Source of the DNA: Psococerastis gibbosa
Taxonomy: Eukaryota > Arthropoda > Insecta > Psocodea > Psocidae
Direction: 5' to 3'
Length of the DNA stretch: 64,000 bases
NCBI GenBank assembly: GCA_963971405.1
Contig: OZ020489.1
Location: forward strand, 23,648,290 to 23,712,289
Below the pieces are notes generated by a model. It saw only the letters and a list, made by a program, of their open reading frames with translations, made no database searches and was not told where the DNA came from. A program made the translations under genes and the position numbers. Positions 36,930-63,775 of this stretch are shown here, in pieces. Numbering within the stretch: position 1 is the first letter of the stretch; each line of letters begins with the position of its first letter.

Positions 36930-39280
36930 CATTTGCCAGATGTTTCCAGTTATCAGCAGTCAGTTGCTTTCATCCTTGAAGTAAAACACGCCCTGTCAGT
37001 ACCGCTGTCAGGGCAGCAAATCAGAAAATAGTATCAGGTAAATTTTCTGTGGATGGGGTGTTACAACTTCTAGGCTACAGTAATCAAACTATTGCTCAAA
37101 CTCCTAGTCGGATTAACTTGAAATTTTGCAAATGTCTTCGGTTTTGATTGCTGAGTCAGGCATAAGAACAGTATTTTACGGAATTCCAAATTCGGGGTGC
37201 AATTCCAATTGCTGAGAAAGATTTTCCCCAACTATTTCACCCCTTCTCTGTTTGTTATTCCTTCACAATTTGTCTGAGTTATTTGATTCGGAGTAAATTG
37301 CTACGCCTTTCTATTAGAATAACTTATTCAGCATTGTCTACTATTAATAAGCAAGCTTTATGGTCCACTGTTCACTGTTCATCAACTTCAAAACAAAAGA
37401 ACTTTTTGATTACCTATATTTATGCGTTAAAAGCTGAGTGATGATCAAAATGATCCCATTTCAAGTTTTCAACAGATTTGATTTGGGGCCCCAGGAATCA
37501 AAAAAGTAGTTTTTACGAACTGTCTGTCCCTATTTCCTCTTTTAAAGCTGCATGGTTTTGTAAATTAAAGTCCTATAGTAAGTAGGAATCCTATTCCTAC
37601 CTACTGTACGTATTGCAAGTTTAGGTGAATGTCCTTGGCCTATGATAGGCTAATTTTATTAACGAAAGATTTTAGCAGTGCAGAGGTGAAATAGGCTATT
37701 TTGGCAAAAATTACTAAACCAGTGGTCCAGTGGTTAAGACAATGCCTCGAATAGGTATATATTGTGGGTTCGAATCCCGCCAAGTACAGAATTTTCGAAA
37801 TTCTTTAATTTCTGTTATTAGAGGTATTATAATATTATAGTATTGGAGGTTGCCTTTTCAACATAAGTTAGTTTAATATCAGTAATATGTGCCATATAAT
37901 GCTGCAATATATTTTTCTACAGTGTCTATATGAGAAATTTTGTTTTGTCTGGCCCTGGCCCGGCCTTTAGACTTTTTCCAGGTCCAGTTGTAGTTAAAAA
38001 GTATCTATAGGTAGTTACAAAATAGGATGTTTGTTATTTTATCTGTATAGTCATTTAATTTTGATAGAATGGGTCAGAATCCCCTGGAACCGCCCTTTAA
38101 ATTTTGTCGCATTCTCTATCTCTAGTAGATGGTAGCATATTGTATTTTTTTCATTCAATGGTGAAATGAATGAAAAATTGTTCAGATTTATTTTGTTATA
38201 TTGACAATTTCAATGCAATTCCATTATTGACATTATTAACCTTGTTTATAGTGCAGACAATGCGTATTACGGAATTTTTCTTCACAAGTGAAGTTCAACA
38301 ACAGTGCTCTCAACAGACGACTTACAGTTAATATTAATTTTATATCGTATTTTGCCGCCCTGCATTTCGCAGTACTTAAATTATTACAATTAATATTCGT
38401 CTAGTTTATTATGTAATGTACAAGGAAATAACAATTCTTATGTCCATCATTAACGTATTTGGCATCGTAAATTAATGTAACTATAAAATCATGTTTATTA
38501 AATTAAAAAACTTAAGATAATGTCCTATAATATACTGTACAAGTAATTGCCAATGCCGTCGGTACCTAAGCCAGAAAAAAAATGGGCGTACGGCGCTATG
38601 CATGTTTGTAATTTCCACGTACGGTAGGTATTGAAGGTGAATTTTTGAAAAGAGATGCGTACTGCATTTAATCGTACAATATGAGTTATTTTATAAATTT
38701 TTGTTAATGGTTTGGCAATCTAATCTGGTAGTAGAATGGTCCAAATGACTCCATTTATCACACTAGACCCCCATTAGACTATTAATACGGTATTTGAAAA
38801 TTTAAAAAAAGGTTCTGAATTTCAGGTCTAGGTTTTGAAAGCATAAGGCTTACGGATCATCCATGTAAAAAGAGAGTCTCCGGTGAATCCGTGGAAGCGA
38901 TACATTACAAATCCAAATTTCCAAAAAAGGGAAAAACAATAATTTAGTCGCTTCAATATTAAAATAAGCATTCATAAAATTGAAAATTTAAGGCAGAAAT
39001 TTCAAAATATGTTGTAAACACAATAACACATGATGACCGAGTCTTTTAGATGATATTAATTAATTCCTTTTTATGCAGCCACCAGCGCCAGTTGGAATTC
39101 TTAAAAAAGAACAATAAAAAAAAAACAAGCTTTCGCAGTAAATTTAAATATTTCTACACAAGCTGAAATATTGTATTATTATCCTAGCAAACCAGGATAA
39201 AGTGCTCTATACAGAGTTTATACTATAGTTGTAATTCAGTCGGAAAATACTCTTAGTCATAGTCAAGACATGTAGCCGCT
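36930..39280. other. No gene recognised
   Basis: AT-rich. A faint relative of the CAGA element end (ggccccaggaatcaaaaaag) lies near 37485-37560, and a tRNA-like head at 37723. Confidence 0.45.
37723..37792 (+). repeat. tRNA-like SINE head, second type
   Basis: tggtccagtggttaagac (box A) and gggttcgaatcccgcc (box B) at tRNA spacing, but no acceptor-stem pairing is visible. More likely a SINE head than a tRNA gene. Confidence 0.5.
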
Positions 39281-45491: not shown

Positions 45492-45710
45492 CTAAAGAAG
45501 TGAGAGGGTGCACTGAGCCAAAAGTAGAAGGGGAAGAGTCGGGTAGAAATTTGGCCACGAACTCCTGAGAAGCTTGTTCTTTTCGACACGGTCCATGTAA
45601 GAGTCCAAGAGCTTCTGTCTCTGAGTTTTGCTGTTTCGGAAAGTTGCATTTTTCTTTTTCGTTGGCACGTCCTTGTTACAGTAGTCTTCATCACAACATG
45701 AAATGCAGAT
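45492..45710 (-). CDS. LYPD6-like gene, last coding exon (CC motif and GPI signal)
   Basis: Starts after the acceptor ttgttgacag, enters in phase 0 with ICISCCDEDYCN, and ends at TAG (45492-45494). After the CCxxxxCN motif comes a lysine/arginine-rich linker of about 40 residues, then a proline-leucine hydrophobic tail with no residues beyond it, as expected for a GPI-anchored product. A fold-back MITE begins 41 bases upstream of the acceptor. Confidence 0.9.
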   Translation of the reverse strand: MCISCCDEDYCNKDVPTKKKNATFRNSKTQRQKLLDSYMDRVEKNKLLRSSWPNFYPTLPLLLLAQCTLSLL

Positions 45711-48700
45711 CTGTCAACAAACAACAAATTGAATTCAGAACAGAGTTCTATTAAGAGTGTACAGCCCGTAGAAAATTTGCAGCCCGAAATGTAATACTTT
45801 TTTATTTTTTATTTAATTAACTAAGCAAGTTATTAAAGATTTGGCTCATTTATGATTTAAGTTGCAGAAGACTACTTCATGCTTAATATAATAAGGTATT
45901 TTTAATTTTCGAAATGGTAGTTTTTTCATAAACACGATAATAATTTATATACAATAACTTTTTGCGTATAATAGATAGCCTACTGTGAATAAGCTACAAT
46001 TTCGAAAATTAATTAGGCCTATACCTTATTATATGATGCACGAAGTATTGTTTTACAACTTAAATTAGCCAAATCTTTAATAACTTGCTTAGTTAATTAA
46101 ATATAAAATAAAAAGTATTAAATTTCGGGCTGCCAATTTCCGGCTGTACACTCTTAAGTGGAGGTGGTAGCTACACAAAATTTAAGTATATGTACACACC
46201 AAAAATCCGATATGTTTAATTTCTGTCTGATTTTTCTTTAAATTAGCTAAAGTTCCAGAAATTTTGATAATTCAGCCACTCATTTTTCATAATTCTCCCC
46301 ATAATTTACTTGTTTTGTGATATTTATTCGATGCTTTCTTTGTAGTAATACCAAAAATTTCATATTATTGTTATTTCATTTACAATCGGTACAAAAATAC
46401 TATGCAGTATAATTATATGAGAATAATATGGATAACATTCCAATTTCTAGGCATAAATGAGATGATATGTTGTGAATTTCTGTAATTTCAAAGTTATGCA
46501 ACCGTCTGTCGATGGTATTGCTAGACCATTCCTGCAGTAATGGATTGCTGAGAAATTAATTAGCATGGACCCCCCTCGACGTCTCAATATGTGGTGTGCA
46601 ATATTGTGGCAACACCTTGACTCAGTGCTACGATATCAACGGCAATAATTATTATGCATTTACATGGAGATTGGCACGTCATTGACGTTACGAACTCCCA
46701 GTTTCCCGAAGGCCACCACACTACACGGTGCTTGTAAATAAATAACATTGGTAAGTTTTAATTTATAAACAATTAATTATTGATACTAGGCTATATCGTA
46801 TTTTTGAGGTACCATAGCTGCTGGAAGTCGTGAGAATGGCAGTATTTTTGTGCAGCTTCCAGAAATGATGTGGCCACTTTGTTCTTGACAGCCACATATA
46901 CTATGCCATCAAAATGTAGAGGGATATTTTCTTTAATTAATGACATCTCAGTGGTGGTTCTGCTATCAATATTTCTTGTGGACTATGACAGTTTGCATTT
47001 TTTTTTTTTTTTGAAAACTATTCATCAGGACATGCTACGTAGAAAATGAGCACCCCAAAATTTGTTGTTCTTATTGACTTTTTATTTTTTTTTTATTTAA
47101 TTAACAAAGCAAGTCATTAAAGATTGGGCTCATGGAAATTGCAGAAGACTAATTCATGCATCAGATAATAGGAAATAATAAATTTTTGGTAGGCTACCTT
47201 AGTTCTTTCATAAATACCAGACCAGATAGGACAGGACTAAAATTTGGCGTATTCTGGAATTTATAGTAGCCTAGAGCTACAAAACCGAAAAGTGAAAATA
47301 CCCAATTATATGATGCACGAAGTAAATTTAGTCTTCTACAACTTAGAGGAGCCAAATTTTTAAAAACTTGCTGAGTTAATTAAATAAAAAATGAAAAGTA
47401 ATTAATTTTGGGGTGCCCATTTTCTACGTGACATATCCTCTTAACAGTTTATTTAAAAACGTATTGAAAAACAAATAATCGGACAACCCCGCTACAAGTT
47501 TTTAGCGGAGTTAGGGATATAAAGCCCTCTCTTACACTCAAATAGGAAGGCCCGGGACCGCCTGCTTTACATGCCCTCCGAAGCATGGCCAGAAAATGTA
47601 GCCAGTGTGGGACTCGAACCAACCACCTTTCGGGTGAAAGTCAGGGTACCACTACGCTACATGTCTTGACTTGTCTTGAATTATAGTGAATGCTATTGAG
47701 AAATGTGGCCTCCAAATGAAGAACTGTATGGAGTTCTTTATCAGACGTATTGTAGAATCCGCCCTTAGTATTATATTTATATACTAGGTATGGTATTGTA
47801 TATGGGGAGCTAGTGTTCCAGTTGTTGAGCGGACACCTGAATTGTAATTATTACGCATGTGAGTTGTTTACCTTTTGATTGTCAATATTGTAACAGCCTA
47901 TTGAATGGGGCGTACATTCTGTCTCGTTCCCGCACTTTTTGTTGACCAACACGGTCCCGCCGTGAGGATCCATAATGTGCAGAGTGTGACAGAAGTTGTT
48001 ACCTGCAAGCAACGAGCAAATTAAAATGCATACAGGTCACTCCAAGGGCGGATTTTATAATATTATGTTATTATATTATAAATTAAATAATTAATTGTCT
48101 ACATTACGTTTTCTTTTGAATTCAAGTGACAAACGCTCCAAGTAATAGTAAAGAAAAAATTATTACTAAGGAATACCGGGCATCACCAATGCATGGTGAT
48201 ATTTTTCAAGCCGCGACTTTTTTGGCGATGGTGGGAACCGCACTAAGTGGGTACCCCTACCTTTGGCAATTCCGCAATTCATTGTACTTCATTAGAATTA
48301 TTTTCTTATTTTTCTTGGTAACCAATTTATATGGGCCCATACATAAGAAAATATTATACTTTTTTGGTACGATATATTCTTATTAGTATTAGCCTACGCG
48401 TCACATTTCATATTTCTTGAAATGTGGCTTGCGTCCACATACATCACTATGCATTAATGTAGGCCTACTACATTTCGGCAATGCCACAAAGCTTATTGGA
48501 TGGCGTAGATGCTAAAGCCGTACATTGCGTTAATGAACAAAACATAGATTTGCCGTGTTTTTTTACATTACTTTTACGTCTCCTTCGTCTTCAAAGGGGG
48601 TCGGCGGCACGGCAGCGGCGTTTCCAGACAACTGTATTGAGCATCTTTTCTGCTTAGCTCCTCAAGTCCTGTTCGATTTTTCTGGGGAGTGTCATCTTCA

Positions 48701-51700
48701 CTTTCCCCCGGGGGTGATGTCCTGAGAGTAAAATGTTTTGATACGCTTTAATAAGAGCTTTGCATCTCTCCTCTGAACGTGCCCCACCAGCCTGAGCCGA
48801 GTCTTTTTCTCTAATTTTCAGAGTAACATGAGCAGTCTTCATCTTCATACTTACAGGTATGTCTTCATTTTGGTGGCGATCTTGTGGGGTGCTGCACCCA
48901 CACGATCGCATTTGCATCGCATTGCAACATGGATCTTGTTTTCATCTCGCTTCCTACCCGGCCAACACTCGGCACCGAACAGGGTCTGACCACGTCTTGT
49001 TTTGGCATTTTTTCTGTCCCAACGTGATTATAGTATTGGTGTCTTCTACATCTAACCATTGGCATTATCAGTGATCAGTCAGAACGACTTAAGCGCAAAC
49101 CTTATCTCGGGAAAATTTGGATCAAATTTAAGAGTACAATCTAACAACGTTTGTGACAAACGTTTAAAGATAAAGAAATATATTTAAGGAGAAAAGAGAA
49201 AGTTTGCCGAAATTTGAGGGAGCGAAAAGATACTTAAGGATGGAACTCATGCCTTGGCCCTATACTTTTATTTTCCCTGAGAAATTTTGTCACCCTTCGC
49301 CGAGCTCCACTCTTTTACTTTTTCATTCTGTTAAACATGCTGTCCCGCGGGAAATTGTGGAAAATTTCTGGGAAAACATTATCCATCTTTCTTTGCGGAA
49401 AGTTTTTCATAACATGTGTTGCTCTCTGAGTGATTTCTCTGTCACTGTAATTTCCATACGATATTCTCTTTAAACTTGCATTTTTAACTTCTTCCAAATA
49501 TGACGCGTGGCGGTACATCCCATTTTTATTCAAAGCAAACATTGAGCATGAGCACATTGTTGGTATTATTGTACTGCGGATTCCATAGAGAGAAGAAGAA
49601 GCAGCTGCAATGGTTCGGCCACGTCCAAAGGATCATGGACGAGAATAGGACCACCCGGAGACTGTCGGACGCAAGGCCACAAGGAGGAAGACCCATTGGC
49701 AGACCAAGAATAACCCTCGAGAAAAGGATTGAACAACTCGCCGGAACAAGAGGGAAAACAATGGCCGAGCTCAAGGCTTTAGCGTCCGGCCGGGGTGAGC
49801 TCAGGTAATGGGTTTGGGGCAACCCCCACGCTGCGCACGCGGCACTAAGGGGAAAGATGAAGAAGAAGAAGGTAATCGGTATAGTCTGTGGCTGTTTCTG
49901 ATGTTATCCTTTGGATGTAACTAAAATATTTTATGCATGATTTGATATACGAGGATATGGAAAGATTCAACTGAGTGGGTGATATTGTGTGAAGTAGCCA
50001 CCAGTTGCATACTTTTCTATTCAGGAAGTGTCATTTTGCATTTCCCCGAGCCGTTCCTCTAATTATCTCCGTTTCCCAAGTCGTTCGCTTGGGTTGCCTA
50101 TTACCATAATGGGGACGGCACAATGCCCCATCAACAAATAAACATTAAGAAAGCACGTCATTTGCATTCCATTTTCGAAAATCAAAATTTAATTTAGTTG
50201 GCAAATGAACACACATACTATTTCCAATTTTCAAGCACCGTTTGATATCTTTTCTGCGATACTGGCGGGAAATTGGCCATTTTTGGTGAATAAAATATTT
50301 CGGTGAATGTTTTCTGTAGGAAAGCCGTAAAAACTAAGGGAATATTTATTGAGTACAACCATCTGTGCTGGTAAAGTTACTTTCGGTTGCCAGTAATTCC
50401 CCCGTATAAGGGGTAATTTAGAGATGATTTGACCAATACATGTTCTGAGGTAAATACCGTACACTGTCCGGCGGATTTTGGGAAATTGTTATTATTTTTC
50501 ATAGCCCAACCATGAGTGTGATAGGTGAAAATTAAAATCACCCAATCACTCACTAATATCAGGGGTGGACAATCCAGTGATATTTCAAGATTTCCCAACT
50601 TCGAGATGTGACTATACCTATAAATTGCAAGATGACGAAGGACAACATTTTTTCGGAACTTAGGTTTCCACCGACCTCTCATTGCAGAATGCACATACGT
50701 TGACGTGGTAACAGATATCATTAATAAAGGCGGGGTTTCCACCGACCTCTCATTGCAGAATGCAAATGACATTGACGGAAATTTTTGTTTTACTCTATGC
50801 CATAGTTAAAATTGATCAATGATCACAGAGTAAAACCACAAACAAACAATCTAAAATTAAAAAATGGCGTCATGGGATATGTTAAGTACAAACATTTTAA
50901 TAGATTTCTATAAAAAGAAAAATTCAAATTTCCGTCAATGTCATTTGTATTCTGCAATGAGAGGTCGGTGGAGACCCCGCCTAAGTCTTGAATGTCTGCT
51001 ACCACGTCAACGTATGTGCATTCTGCAATGAGAGGTCGGTGGATACCCCGCCTCAATGGAATCTTGCGTGCCGGTTTTTTGTCTTCATATTTAATGTATG
51101 GGGTTTATATCATTATCATCATATCATCAAAATGAAGCATGCATACCCATACCGACATACCGTATACAGTACAATGAAAGTTCGAAGTAACTTACCCAAT
51201 TTGCAAGGTCGATCGATTGCGAACTGGTTGCAAATGTGATTATTGGAGACGTTGACGCACGTATAGCAGGTGACACCGTCTAAAAAAATAATAAAACATG
51301 GCCAAGTTTGGAAAATGCTGTTGCAAACGAGGGACGAAGAGTAATGAGACTAGGTCGTGTCAAACGAGATCCAAAACTCTTCCCTTTCATCCCCCCCTCC
51401 CACCTCCAGCCATGCTATCTTTTTACATTGTCGCTGTTGCTGCCCGCCACCGGCGGGGTATCTGGGCAACGCAACGTGTTTGAAATACTAAGTTTACCTA
51501 TCAGCAACAATGGGGTTGATAACTGAAAACCCGATCCGATAGCTTACCAATAGTGACTGTATTCTCTGTACCAATAAAAAATTGGGCTATCTAGCTTTTC
51601 GCATGTAATATGTATCTAGGAGAAAGGCGCCCTGGCAGGTGGTGATAGAAATAAATCAGTAATTTCAGTAATATTTTTGCATTCACTTAACTTGGCTGCT

Positions 51701-52279
51701 ACGATGGCCTAGTACTGAAACCGGTCACTTTTCTACATATTTTTATTAATGCCTGATGGAGTTATGTATATATATCAGGTATGTAATCAGTAATGACTTT
51801 TGTTATAATTATTAATGGCCAATCTGGTACAGTCACTCATCTAGGTATGCCTGGGACCAAAGCATGGCTTAGTAAGTATGGGACTCGAACCTATAACTTC
51901 TAGGTAGGTTGGCACTCCTACACTACAAGTAACATACGTCAGAGATGTCGTGTCGGCTGAAATCGGACAGTTTGAAATGAACGTTTTAGAGTACTTCGGA
52001 CAGTTTGAAATGAACATTTTAGAGTAGGTACTTACGTTCTCCATCTCCTGACTCAAAGTCGGACCGTTGTGCCATGGCCGAGTAGTTGGTGAGGGACATA
52101 ATGTCTTCAATGCTTCGAGTGGTGTTGCTTCCGTCAAGAATCAGTTCCTTATTAGAATTGTGCATTTTTTGTTTACTACTCTTAACTTTTTCACAATTAA
52201 TTATATTTTTATTATCTATGAATGAAAGAACAATATATAGAATGAGATATTTATATAAATAGTAGTAGCCAGTTCGCAT
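45492..52279 (-). CDS. LYPD6-like Ly6/three-finger protein, four coding exons, 225 aa
   Basis: Join of 52036-52279, 51196-51279, 47872-48002 and 45492-45710 on the minus strand gives 678 bases: 225 codons plus TAG, with no internal stop and correct phases (1, 1, 0). All introns are GT-AG. Seen in the protein: a hydrophobic N-terminal signal (about residues 6-20); a polar linker to residue 82; a Ly6 domain (residues 86-164) with cysteines at 86, 89, 98, 107, 114, 133, 139, 146, 155, 158, 159 and 164, ending in the diagnostic CCxxxxCN; a basic linker; and a hydrophobic C-terminus (residues 212-225) typical of a GPI-attachment signal. N-glycosylation motifs lie at 52, 65, 91, 135 and 174. The twelve-cysteine spacing and the VPT...NATF stretch after the last cysteine resemble vertebrate LYPD6/LYPD6B, which modulate Wnt/LRP6 and nicotinic receptors; function in this organism is inferred only. 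The start is supported by an in-frame TAA directly before the ATG. A variant poly(A) signal ATTAAA lies at 45291-45296. Confidence 0.9.
45755..46153. mobile_element. Fold-back MITE, TTAA family, copy 3, in Ly6 intron 3
   Basis: A 399-bp element flanked by TTAA at 45751-45754 and 46154-46157, ends GAGTGTACAGCCCG / cggctgtacactc. It begins 41 bases upstream of the splice acceptor of Ly6 exon 4, so intron 3 recognition must work in a very short native stretch. Confidence 0.9.
47055..47450. mobile_element. Diverged fold-back MITE of the TTAA family, Ly6 intron 3
   Basis: Shares attaaagattgggctcat, then cttcatgcatcagataatag and the mirrored second half with the family. The termini are diverged. 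Confidence 0.65.
47506..47675 (-). mobile_element. tRNA-derived SINE in Ly6 intron 3
   Basis: Full family order on the minus strand: head gtagcgtagtggtacc, box B region ggttcgagtcccacac, body and hairpin. It has the same orientation as the Ly6 gene and lies about 200 bases after exon 3. Confidence 0.82.
47872..48002 (-). CDS. LYPD6-like gene, coding exon 3 (central Ly6 domain)
   Basis: A 131-base exon with acceptor gcttgcag and donor gtaaac after CAAAAG. It encodes NNFCHTLHIMDPHGG and then the KKC...EC...GC cysteines. It is flanked by about 3.2 kb of intron on the 5' side and 2.2 kb on the 3' side, both full of repeats. Confidence 0.92.
48654..49557 (-). other. Unrecognised broken coding-like region in Ly6 intron 2
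   Basis: Three minus-strand frames in succession (49315-49557, 48865-49065, 48654-48917) have non-random amino-acid content, for example HVTLKIREKDSAQAGG and SEERCKALIKAYQN. No family recognised; probably remains of a mobile element. Confidence 0.3.
49575..49870 (+). pseudogene. LINE reverse transcriptase C-terminal remnant in Ly6 intron 2
   Basis: Frame 49500-49808 contains KKQLQWFGHVQRIMDENR, then RPQGGRPIGRPRITLEKR and a basic end before a stop. WFGHVxRM followed by RPIGRPR is the usual LINE ORF2 C-terminus. It ends in an A/G-rich tail (gaagaagaagaag) near 49860. It sits antisense within the second intron of the Ly6 gene. Confidence 0.75.
50663..51052. mobile_element. Nested palindromic MITE C in Ly6 intron 2
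   Basis: 390 bp after TTA. Outer and inner ends both read tttccaccgacctctcattg. The arm pair is the same as at 35605 but reversed. It lies 138 bases after the exon 2 donor. Confidence 0.88.
51196..51279 (-). CDS. LYPD6-like gene, coding exon 2 (first half of finger 1)
   Basis: An 84-base exon with acceptor ttattttttag before 51279 and donor gtaagtt after 51196. It encodes GVTCYTC, an NVS glycosylation motif, CNQFA and RPCKL, that is the first four cysteines of the Ly6 domain. It enters in phase 1 and leaves in phase 1. Confidence 0.92.
51860..51937 (-). repeat. tRNA-like SINE head, diverged
   Basis: Minus strand has box A tgtagtgtaggagtg and box B aggttcgagtccc, as in the tRNA-type SINE, but a different body. 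It lies in Ly6 intron 1. Confidence 0.5.
52036..52279 (-). CDS. LYPD6-like gene, coding exon 1 (signal peptide and linker)
   Basis: Encodes residues 1-81 plus one base of codon 82. It ends GAGAAC followed by the donor gtaagt at 52030-52035. The first 20 residues are tyrosine- and leucine-rich and hydrophobic, as in a signal peptide. The following 60 residues are polar, with two N-glycosylation motifs. The exon may begin upstream at 52445, after the acceptor-like tttctatgtttcag, which would make 52280-52445 5' untranslated sequence; that boundary is inferred. Confidence 0.85.
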
Positions 52280-52449
52280 TTAGGACAGTTTGTACGACAC
52301 TCAGTCGGGTCCGTATTGCCTTTCTGCATGCCACTCAATTTTATTTGCCTTTTCCCTCTTGGTAGTGTTGCTATGACATCGTTACGGGGATCGGGAAGCG
52401 TCCTAGCGGCGACTCACTGGAAGCGTTCTTTGATATGTACTGACCCTGA

Positions 52450-62404: not shown

Positions 62405-63775
62405 TTAAAAAAAATTTAAAGTGTAACTTTTCTTTATTTTGTGTAGGGCTGTCCAATGGTGAGGATCGAATGTGTGATTTTCCGAGTTAAGGTGTTTCGC
62501 GAAGGTGCTGTTGGTGTTGGTGTCTCCTATACCTGTTATATGTTCTCGGACCCTAGTTTTAAGGCTTCTGCCTGTTTGGCCTATGTAAATTGCGTTACAA
62601 TCGTTACAATTTAGACGATAAACTCCATTGCCTTTTACCTTTTCTGGTTTGGTTTTGCAGTTCATGAGTTTATTGGCCAAATTGTTGCGGTTGTACGGGG
62701 CTGGTGTTTTGTCTGTTGTAGTAGAAATGAGGTTACAAATTTTTTCTGTAATTTTTTCTATGTATTGTATCCTGAAATATGATTTATTGGTTTCCGGGTT
62801 TAAGCTCTCTGGGGGGTAAATTAGTTTGAGGTTATGTTTGATTTTGTGATGTCGTAAGATTCTGTCTATTAGATTGAGATTGAAATTGTTATTTTGGCCA
62901 ATTTGTTTTATTGTATTTAATTCATTATTATAGTTGGTTTCATTCATAGGGATGTTAAGGAGTCGAAAAATCATACTATGGAATGCTGCGTGTTTGTGCT
63001 GGAATGGGTGAGAAGAATCAACAGGGATTATATTATCGCTATGGGTTTCTTTACGAAATATCTTGAAGTCTAGGGTACTATTATTTTTGGTGATGGTGAG
63101 GTCTAAGAAGTTCAGGGAGTTGTTTTCTTCTACTTCCATGGTAAATTGGATTTTTGGGTGAATTGTGTTGATAAAACTTAAGAAAGTGTCTAGTTGTCTG
63201 TTACTTCCTGTCCAAATGCAGAAGATATCATCCACACACCTTGTCCAGAAAGATATACATTTAACTAGGGGATTTTTATTGAGTAGAAGTTTGTGTTCGA
63301 AGTTATTCATAAAAATTTCAGCAAGAAGGGGAGAAAGGGAAGAACCCATAGGTAGGCCTATTTTTTGTTGGTAGTAGTCAGATTCGAAACGGAAATAGTT
63401 TTGATGAGTGCATGTGTCTAACAGAAGGAGGGTCTCAGAAATAAGGCTGTTCGAGGTATTATTATTGTGATAGAGTGACTGGGCAACTAATTTACGTACT
63501 TCGGGTACGGGAATATTAGTAAACAGATTTTTGACATCGAAAGAGACGAGTTTGGCATTGCTGGATAAGGAAAGGTGCTTAAGGCGGGAAACCAACTCGA
63601 ATGAGTTTTTGACGCTGTGGCGGGGTATGAAGTTTGATAGCTCGCGAATGTGTTTGTTGAGAAAACTAGCTACTTTGCTGGCTGGGGCACTGTTATACGA
63701 AACTACTGGGCGGATAGGTTGATTGGGATTATGAAGTTTAACCAGACCAAAAAATGAAGGAGCTACGGGGTTCAT
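62405..63775 (-). CDS. PLE reverse transcriptase with C-terminal GIY-YIG endonuclease
   Basis: A 456-codon intact frame, part of a longer polyprotein. The reverse transcriptase copies element RNA at a nick and the GIY-YIG domain makes that nick. Visible motifs: FFGLVKLH with RPVVS (residues 8-26); palm motif A FDVKNLFTNIP (79-89); motif B GLPMGSSLSP (140-149); motif C RCVDD (179-183) with both catalytic aspartates but Cys in place of the usual Tyr; a thumb region to about 370; then the GIY-YIG domain, GVYRLNC (384-390) and IYIGQTGRSLKTRVREH (396-412), with the catalytic tyrosine and arginines and the CxxC before it. The domain order matches the Penelope group. The annotated Met is only the first Met after the frameshift; the real frame is open upstream. 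Confidence 0.92.
   Translation of the reverse strand: MNPVAPSFFGLVKLHNPNQPIRPVVSYNSAPASKVASFLNKHIRELSNFIPRHSVKNSFELVSRLKHLSLSSNAKLVSFDVKNLFTNIPVPEVRKLVAQSLYHNNNTSNSLISETLLLLDTCTHQNYFRFESDYYQQKIGLPMGSSLSPLLAEIFMNNFEHKLLLNKNPLVKCISFWTRCVDDIFCIWTGSNRQLDTFLSFINTIHPKIQFTMEVEENNSLNFLDLTITKNNSTLDFKIFRKETHSDNIIPVDSSHPFQHKHAAFHSMIFRLLNIPMNETNYNNELNTIKQIGQNNNFNLNLIDRILRHHKIKHNLKLIYPPESLNPETNKSYFRIQYIEKITEKICNLISTTTDKTPAPYNRNNLANKLMNCKTKPEKVKGNGVYRLNCNDCNAIYIGQTGRSLKTRVREHITGIGDTNTNSTFAKHLNSENHTFDPHHWTALHKIKKSYTLNFF

Follow-up and report, generated by a model that had tools for sequence, protein, structure and literature searches.

The closest described relatives of the gene analyzed here are LYPD6 and LYPD6B, members of the Ly6 family with a single three-finger LU domain. 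Human LYPD6 is described as inhibiting nicotinic acetylcholine receptors (nAChRs) and as binding LRP6 with a dissociation constant (Kd) of ~1 μM (PMC8494132), and zebrafish Lypd6 is described as an enhancer of Wnt signalling (PMC6600238). The LYPD6 branch is already known outside the vertebrates, in starfish, where LyAr4 and LyAp4 group with LYPD6/LYPD6B at 52-67% similarity (PMC9410279, PMC11595613). Work on insect Ly6 genes, as presented in two sources, centres on sleepless and on septate-junction genes (PMC8914287, PMC6600238), and Drosophila sleepless is reported to be anchored by glycosylphosphatidylinositol (GPI) and to act on an nAChR (PMC6600238). Among the open-licence papers that we searched, none turned up that examines the function of LYPD6 in an arthropod. 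We analyzed a stretch of 64,000 nucleotides from the psocid Psococerastis gibbosa (contig OZ020489.1, positions 23,648,290 to 23,712,289; "the window", in whose coordinates positions are given below), which carries a gene of this type on its minus strand between positions 45492 and 52279. Taken as a whole, this locus is probably an arthropod gene of the LYPD6/LYPD6B branch that looks functional and is apparently present in a single copy, and we propose that its product is a secreted, GPI-anchored modulator of nicotinic receptors.

The original prediction joined four exons on the minus strand (52279-52036, 51279-51196, 48002-47872 and 45710-45492, of 244, 84, 131 and 219 nt). The joined frame is intact over 678 nt and encodes 225 residues and a stop codon, and by the exon lengths the introns are in phases 1, 1 and 0; both the predicted length of the joined frame and the matching phases were borne out. 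All six GT-AG borders are present in the sequence, with GT donors at 52036, 51196 and 47872 and AG acceptors before 51279, 48002 and 45710. We ranked these sites, starting from 1, among the GT and AG dinucleotides on the minus strand of the window, using a generic weight matrix. The donors were 60th, 18th and 92nd among 3344 GT sites, and the acceptors were 47th, 10th and 76th among 3259 AG sites, each in the order given above.

The coding stretch that runs from an ATG at 52165 to the donor at 52036 (AAC/GTAAGT, intron phase 1) would encode a linker ahead of the LU domain, and it looks coding. The next exon (51279-51196) contains cysteines 1-4 of the LU domain and aligns with positions 4-32 of the Pfam profile PF16975, and the third (48002-47872) contains cysteines 5-8 and aligns with positions 35-78. 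The last exon (45710-45492) supplies cysteines 9-12 (profile positions 77-103), followed by the VPT...NATF end of the domain, a spacer, a hydrophobic tail of GPI type and the stop codon. The G+C content (GC) of these three exons is 47.6%, 45.8% and 44.3%, respectively. The locus had been described as marked by no frame longer than 98 codons. This holds for the LU exons, around which the open frames are short (76, 61 and 73 amino acids). A 131-codon frame within the span lies inside intron 2; that intronic frame matched no Pfam family at E ≤ 0.1. The gene is real, is coding over short exons, and has the appearance of an ordinary animal gene.

The family assignment comes mainly from searches with the spliced protein. 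From the linker onward, this protein matched PF16975 with an E-value of 7.9e-19 and a score of 68.3 bits, where the cut-off is 31.5. This profile is UPAR_LY6_2, "Lypd6", named for Ly6/PLAUR domain-containing protein 6. Two broader three-finger profiles, PF00021 (E = 1.2e-6) and PF00087 (E = 7e-5), were also above their own cut-offs, with lower scores. A search of the PDB returned only four sequences at E ≤ 10. The top matches, in the range of 1e-13 to 1e-15, were to LYPD6 (6gbi, 5.6e-15; 6ib6, 1.2e-13) and LYPD6B (6zso, 7.6e-15), and the next was LYPD1 (6zss, E = 1.6). The aligned identity was 33/92 to LYPD6, 33/92 to LYPD6B and 20/81 to LYPD1.

The spacing of the cysteines gives weaker support. 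The LU domain has 12 of 12 cysteines, at intervals of 3, 9, 9, 7, 19, 6, 7, 9, 3, 1 and 5. In both LYPD6 and LYPD6B the intervals are 3, 9, 9, 7, 19, 6, 5, 11, 3, 1 and 5, so that nine of the 11 are the same as in the gene; the two that differ (by +2 and -2) both lie within finger III. LYPD1, also called Lynx2, has intervals of 3, 9, 9, 8, 17, 6, 11, 9, 3, 1 and 5, and is the same as the gene at eight of the 11, with 8, 17 and 11 in place of 7, 19 and 7. The intervals between cysteines 4-5 and 5-6 are thus 7 and 19 in both the gene and LYPD6, and 8 and 17 in LYPD1. The number of cysteines cannot tell LYPD6 from LYPD1, because LYPD1/Lynx2 is likewise described as having twelve, in six disulfides, with the extra ones in loops I and III (PMC7582953). 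The argument from the cysteine pattern, as originally made, is sound in the count and in the nine LYPD6-like intervals, but it loses force because LYPD1 also has twelve cysteines and equals the gene at eight intervals. Cysteine spacing separates LYPD6 from LYPD1 only narrowly, and the assignment draws chiefly on the sequence matches.

With the profile and the best PDB relatives in agreement, membership in the LYPD6 family is close to certain, and the gene is a new and well-supported addition to a family already known. The predicted placement in the LYPD6 branch was therefore supported. The contrast that had been drawn with "single-domain" insect Ly6 proteins fails, since the protein from the window itself has one LU domain. 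The likeness to LYPD6 and LYPD6B extends to the single LU domain, the 12 cysteines and an A-x-F end after the domain; the protein from the window in addition has a hydrophobic C-terminus. The differences from the human pair are the overall identity of 36%, the finger III spacing (7/9 in the gene and 5/11 in the human proteins), and two extra N-glycosylation sequons within the LU domain, which the human pair lacks. The spacer ahead of the tail is presumably longer in the gene than in human LYPD6.

We scanned the genome from which the window comes (409 Mb in 68 contigs) for further copies. A blind six-frame scan with PF16975 scored six candidates and listed five matches at E ≤ 10. Three of the five are the LU exons of the gene, on one strand and in order. 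None of these exceeded the cut-off of 31.5 bits alone (single exons reached 19.3 bits, and at most 24.9 bits in the genome scan), as expected for a domain that is split over exons. The match at C1:1463326 was rejected as a second copy, as it has two internal stops and its DNA resembles a transposon fragment; the other, at C12:3878896, is weak (E = 4.81). A search of the genome with the protein listed three matches, all three of them the LU exons, and both the last exon and the stretch 52036-52290 were matched once. From the profile scan, the protein search and these one-time matches, the gene appears to be single copy.

The original prediction also called the gene complete, with translation beginning at 52279 and a signal peptide within the same exon as the linker. 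We consider this doubtful, although the frame is open from 52279 and encodes a hydrophobic segment as well as a possible cleavage site. The gene's strand has 156 ATG frames in the window, and in a crude signal test the claimed signal peptide was the sole one to reach its score. Of the other ATG frames in the whole window, 296 in number, 10 (some sharing a frame) scored at least as well, all 10 of them on the plus strand (10/141). The composition of the region from 52279 to 52166 on the minus strand makes it doubtful as coding sequence. GC is 26.6% in the part that would encode the signal peptide (52279-52216) and 14.0% in the part that follows (52215-52166), compared to 46.9% in 52165-52036 and 44-48% in the exons. 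At codon position 3, GC is 0.29 and 0.06 in the two parts upstream of the ATG at 52165, 0.53 downstream of it, and 0.55-0.63 in the other exons. As background, 1.4% of 50-nt windows in the 64-kb stretch have a GC of 14% or less, and 17% of 64-nt windows have a GC of 26.6% or less.

In the same region, the AG before 52215 is acceptor-like, ranking 71st of 3259 with an incoming phase of 1, and the claimed hydrophobic stretch is also what an acceptor-like pyrimidine tract encodes when read in frame, from which its hydrophobicity (2.8 over 8 residues) may stem. Peptides of 8 residues translated from the ends of the supported introns gave 3.1 at 48002 and 2.3 and 2.1 at the other two, so that one of three is as hydrophobic. 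There is also a TATA sequence at -32 with an initiator (Inr) TCATTC that would place a possible +1 at 52223; the window has three such TATA/Inr pairs per strand. A core promoter at 52223 would fit a start of translation at the ATG at 52165, which has the context AAACAAAAAATG. The protein that begins at this ATG has no signal peptide on the crude test. Given the composition, the acceptor-like AG, the possible promoter and the crude signal test, the description of the gene as complete is not justified. The claim of a signal peptide keeps the best score among the gene-strand frames in its favor, and is weakened by the exon-unlike GC and by the plus-strand frames that score as well. LU genes are described as generally having phase-1 introns and usually having a separate signal exon (PMC6600238). 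If there is a signal-peptide exon, it is more likely to lie upstream than at 52279, even though a search of ~52 kb, described below, gave no better upstream exon.

At the other end of the protein, the last 16 residues are hydrophobic (mean Kyte-Doolittle value of 1.6) and follow a polar spacer. This is in keeping with the description of the tail as being of GPI type, and the GPI signal itself is putative. We propose that the protein would be secreted through a signal peptide, encoded at 52279 or further upstream, that its LU domain would form six disulfides, and that the hydrophobic C-terminal tail would direct GPI anchoring. The three fingers would then modulate a surface receptor, most likely nAChRs, which we propose as the target because human LYPD6 and LYPD6B both act on them.

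The same gene could act instead as an enhancer of Wnt/β-catenin signalling, binding Arrow, the homologue of LRP6, much as vertebrate Lypd6 is described as binding LRP6 and raising Wnt signalling (PMC8494132, PMC6600238). The tip of finger II reads G-T-V in the gene and N-S-I in human LYPD6; LYPD6B has no NxI there, and the only N-x-I within the LU domain of the gene is N-H-I, in finger I. The NxI tripeptide is reportedly the LRP6-binding motif of LYPD6 (Zhao 2018). Because this reported finger II motif is replaced by G-T-V, the Wnt co-receptor route is less likely. We judge it to be unlikely, and for this reason prefer modulation of nAChRs over a role in Wnt signalling.

Several results weigh against our overall reading of the locus as a gene for a secreted, LYPD6-type nicotinic modulator. 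In ~52 kb searched for an upstream signal exon, loose thresholds gave two candidates among 894 ATGs on the gene's strand and three among 928 on the control strand; the two were discarded, being no better than chance. Strict thresholds gave none on either strand. The order of genes is also not shared with the human locus. MMADHC, the neighbour of human LYPD6, had a single match in the genome, on contig C12 and not on C14, where the gene lies; gene order next to MMADHC is therefore not common to the two and lends no support. Finally, the proposed cholinergic role comes from analogy with the human proteins alone, and its chances are about even.

It is very improbable that the locus is an ordinary insect Ly6 gene of the quiver/sleepless type with a mere resemblance to LYPD6. 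These insect genes, which match PF17064 (QVR), likewise have a single LU domain, and a published table pairs a honeybee protein labelled qvr with human LYPD6 (PMC10179490). For the spliced product of the gene, however, PF17064 was not listed at E ≤ 1. The profile had 19 listed matches in the genome at E ≤ 1, nine of them over its cut-off and none in the window, and nine of the 19 form a cluster at C13:45.13-45.42 Mb. Two QVR loci that we compared both matched QVR and neither matched PF16975; a PDB search with the first of them gave no LU relative at E ≤ 10. By these profile matches, QVR-type and LYPD6-type Ly6 genes are distinct loci in this genome. A decayed pseudogene with an intact-looking frame, which the uncertain signal peptide and the repeats in introns 2 and 3 might suggest, is scarcely credible for exons that have no stop or frameshift, high-ranking splice sites, all 12 cysteines, and a position-3 GC that is the highest of the three codon positions in all four coding stretches.

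The gene had been described as hidden between transposons. The description suits introns 2 and 3, both of which contain a dispersed palindromic repeat. Intron 2 contains a palindromic, transposon-like repeat of 391 bp with inverted repeats (50663-51053). A first look at the genome gave 3786 candidates for it, and among the best 40, which were scored, the 39 besides itself were 95-97% identical. Intron 3 contains a 367-bp palindrome, also with inverted repeats (45773-46139), that ends 62 nt before exon 4. It had 2598 first-look candidates, and the 39 besides itself among the best 40 scored were 84-86% identical. By these counts, both palindromes behave as dispersed, transposon-like repeats. The family of the intron 2 repeat is perhaps a recently active short transposon. 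There is a second palindromic repeat in intron 3 (47027-47439), related to the first, and the donor at 52036 is closely followed by two 31-nt direct repeats whose starts are 33 nt apart (51963-52026).

We noted other features of the window and the genome. A tRNA-like match at 37722-37781 scored 29.5 bits against a gathering threshold of 29 and had no ARAGORN call, and two related 35-nt stretches (47599-47633 and 51870-51904) contain a B-box-like sequence; all three are possibly short interspersed nuclear elements derived from tRNA. At 62405-63775 there is a 456-codon open reading frame with reverse transcriptase and GIY-YIG domains, a pairing that we take to indicate a Penelope-like element. 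A 17-kb contig carries nad2, cox1, cox2 and atp6, all in the same orientation and with frames that stay open when read with the invertebrate mitochondrial code; we assigned these names by recognition. COX1 had 43 listed matches in the genome, one of which is the mitochondrial contig C68, and at C14:11085363-11086704 most of mitochondrial COX1 apparently has a nuclear copy, in two pieces. Arrays of TTAGG gave 13642 forward and 7517 reverse matches (overlaps counted), with the places shown all lying near the end of contig C1, and the same pattern read backwards had no matches. The TTAGG arrays and the mitochondrial gene order point to an arthropod, and probably to an insect.

As a gene annotation, the finding is useful though ordinary. 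Its wider interest lies in the comparison with starfish LyAr4 and LyAp4, which are invertebrate and of LYPD6 type like the gene in the window, but echinoderm, and which we set beside it from their published description. An arthropod counterpart of LYPD6 beside those of starfish would mean that the LYPD6 branch was already present in the bilaterian common ancestor. We suggest, tentatively and with clear reservations, that the gene retains an ancestral bilaterian LYPD6 without NxI, in which case modulation of acetylcholine receptors would be old and binding of a Wnt co-receptor would be a later gain of vertebrate LYPD6. The gene may also offer an insect model in which to separate the cholinergic role of LYPD6 from its role in Wnt signalling.

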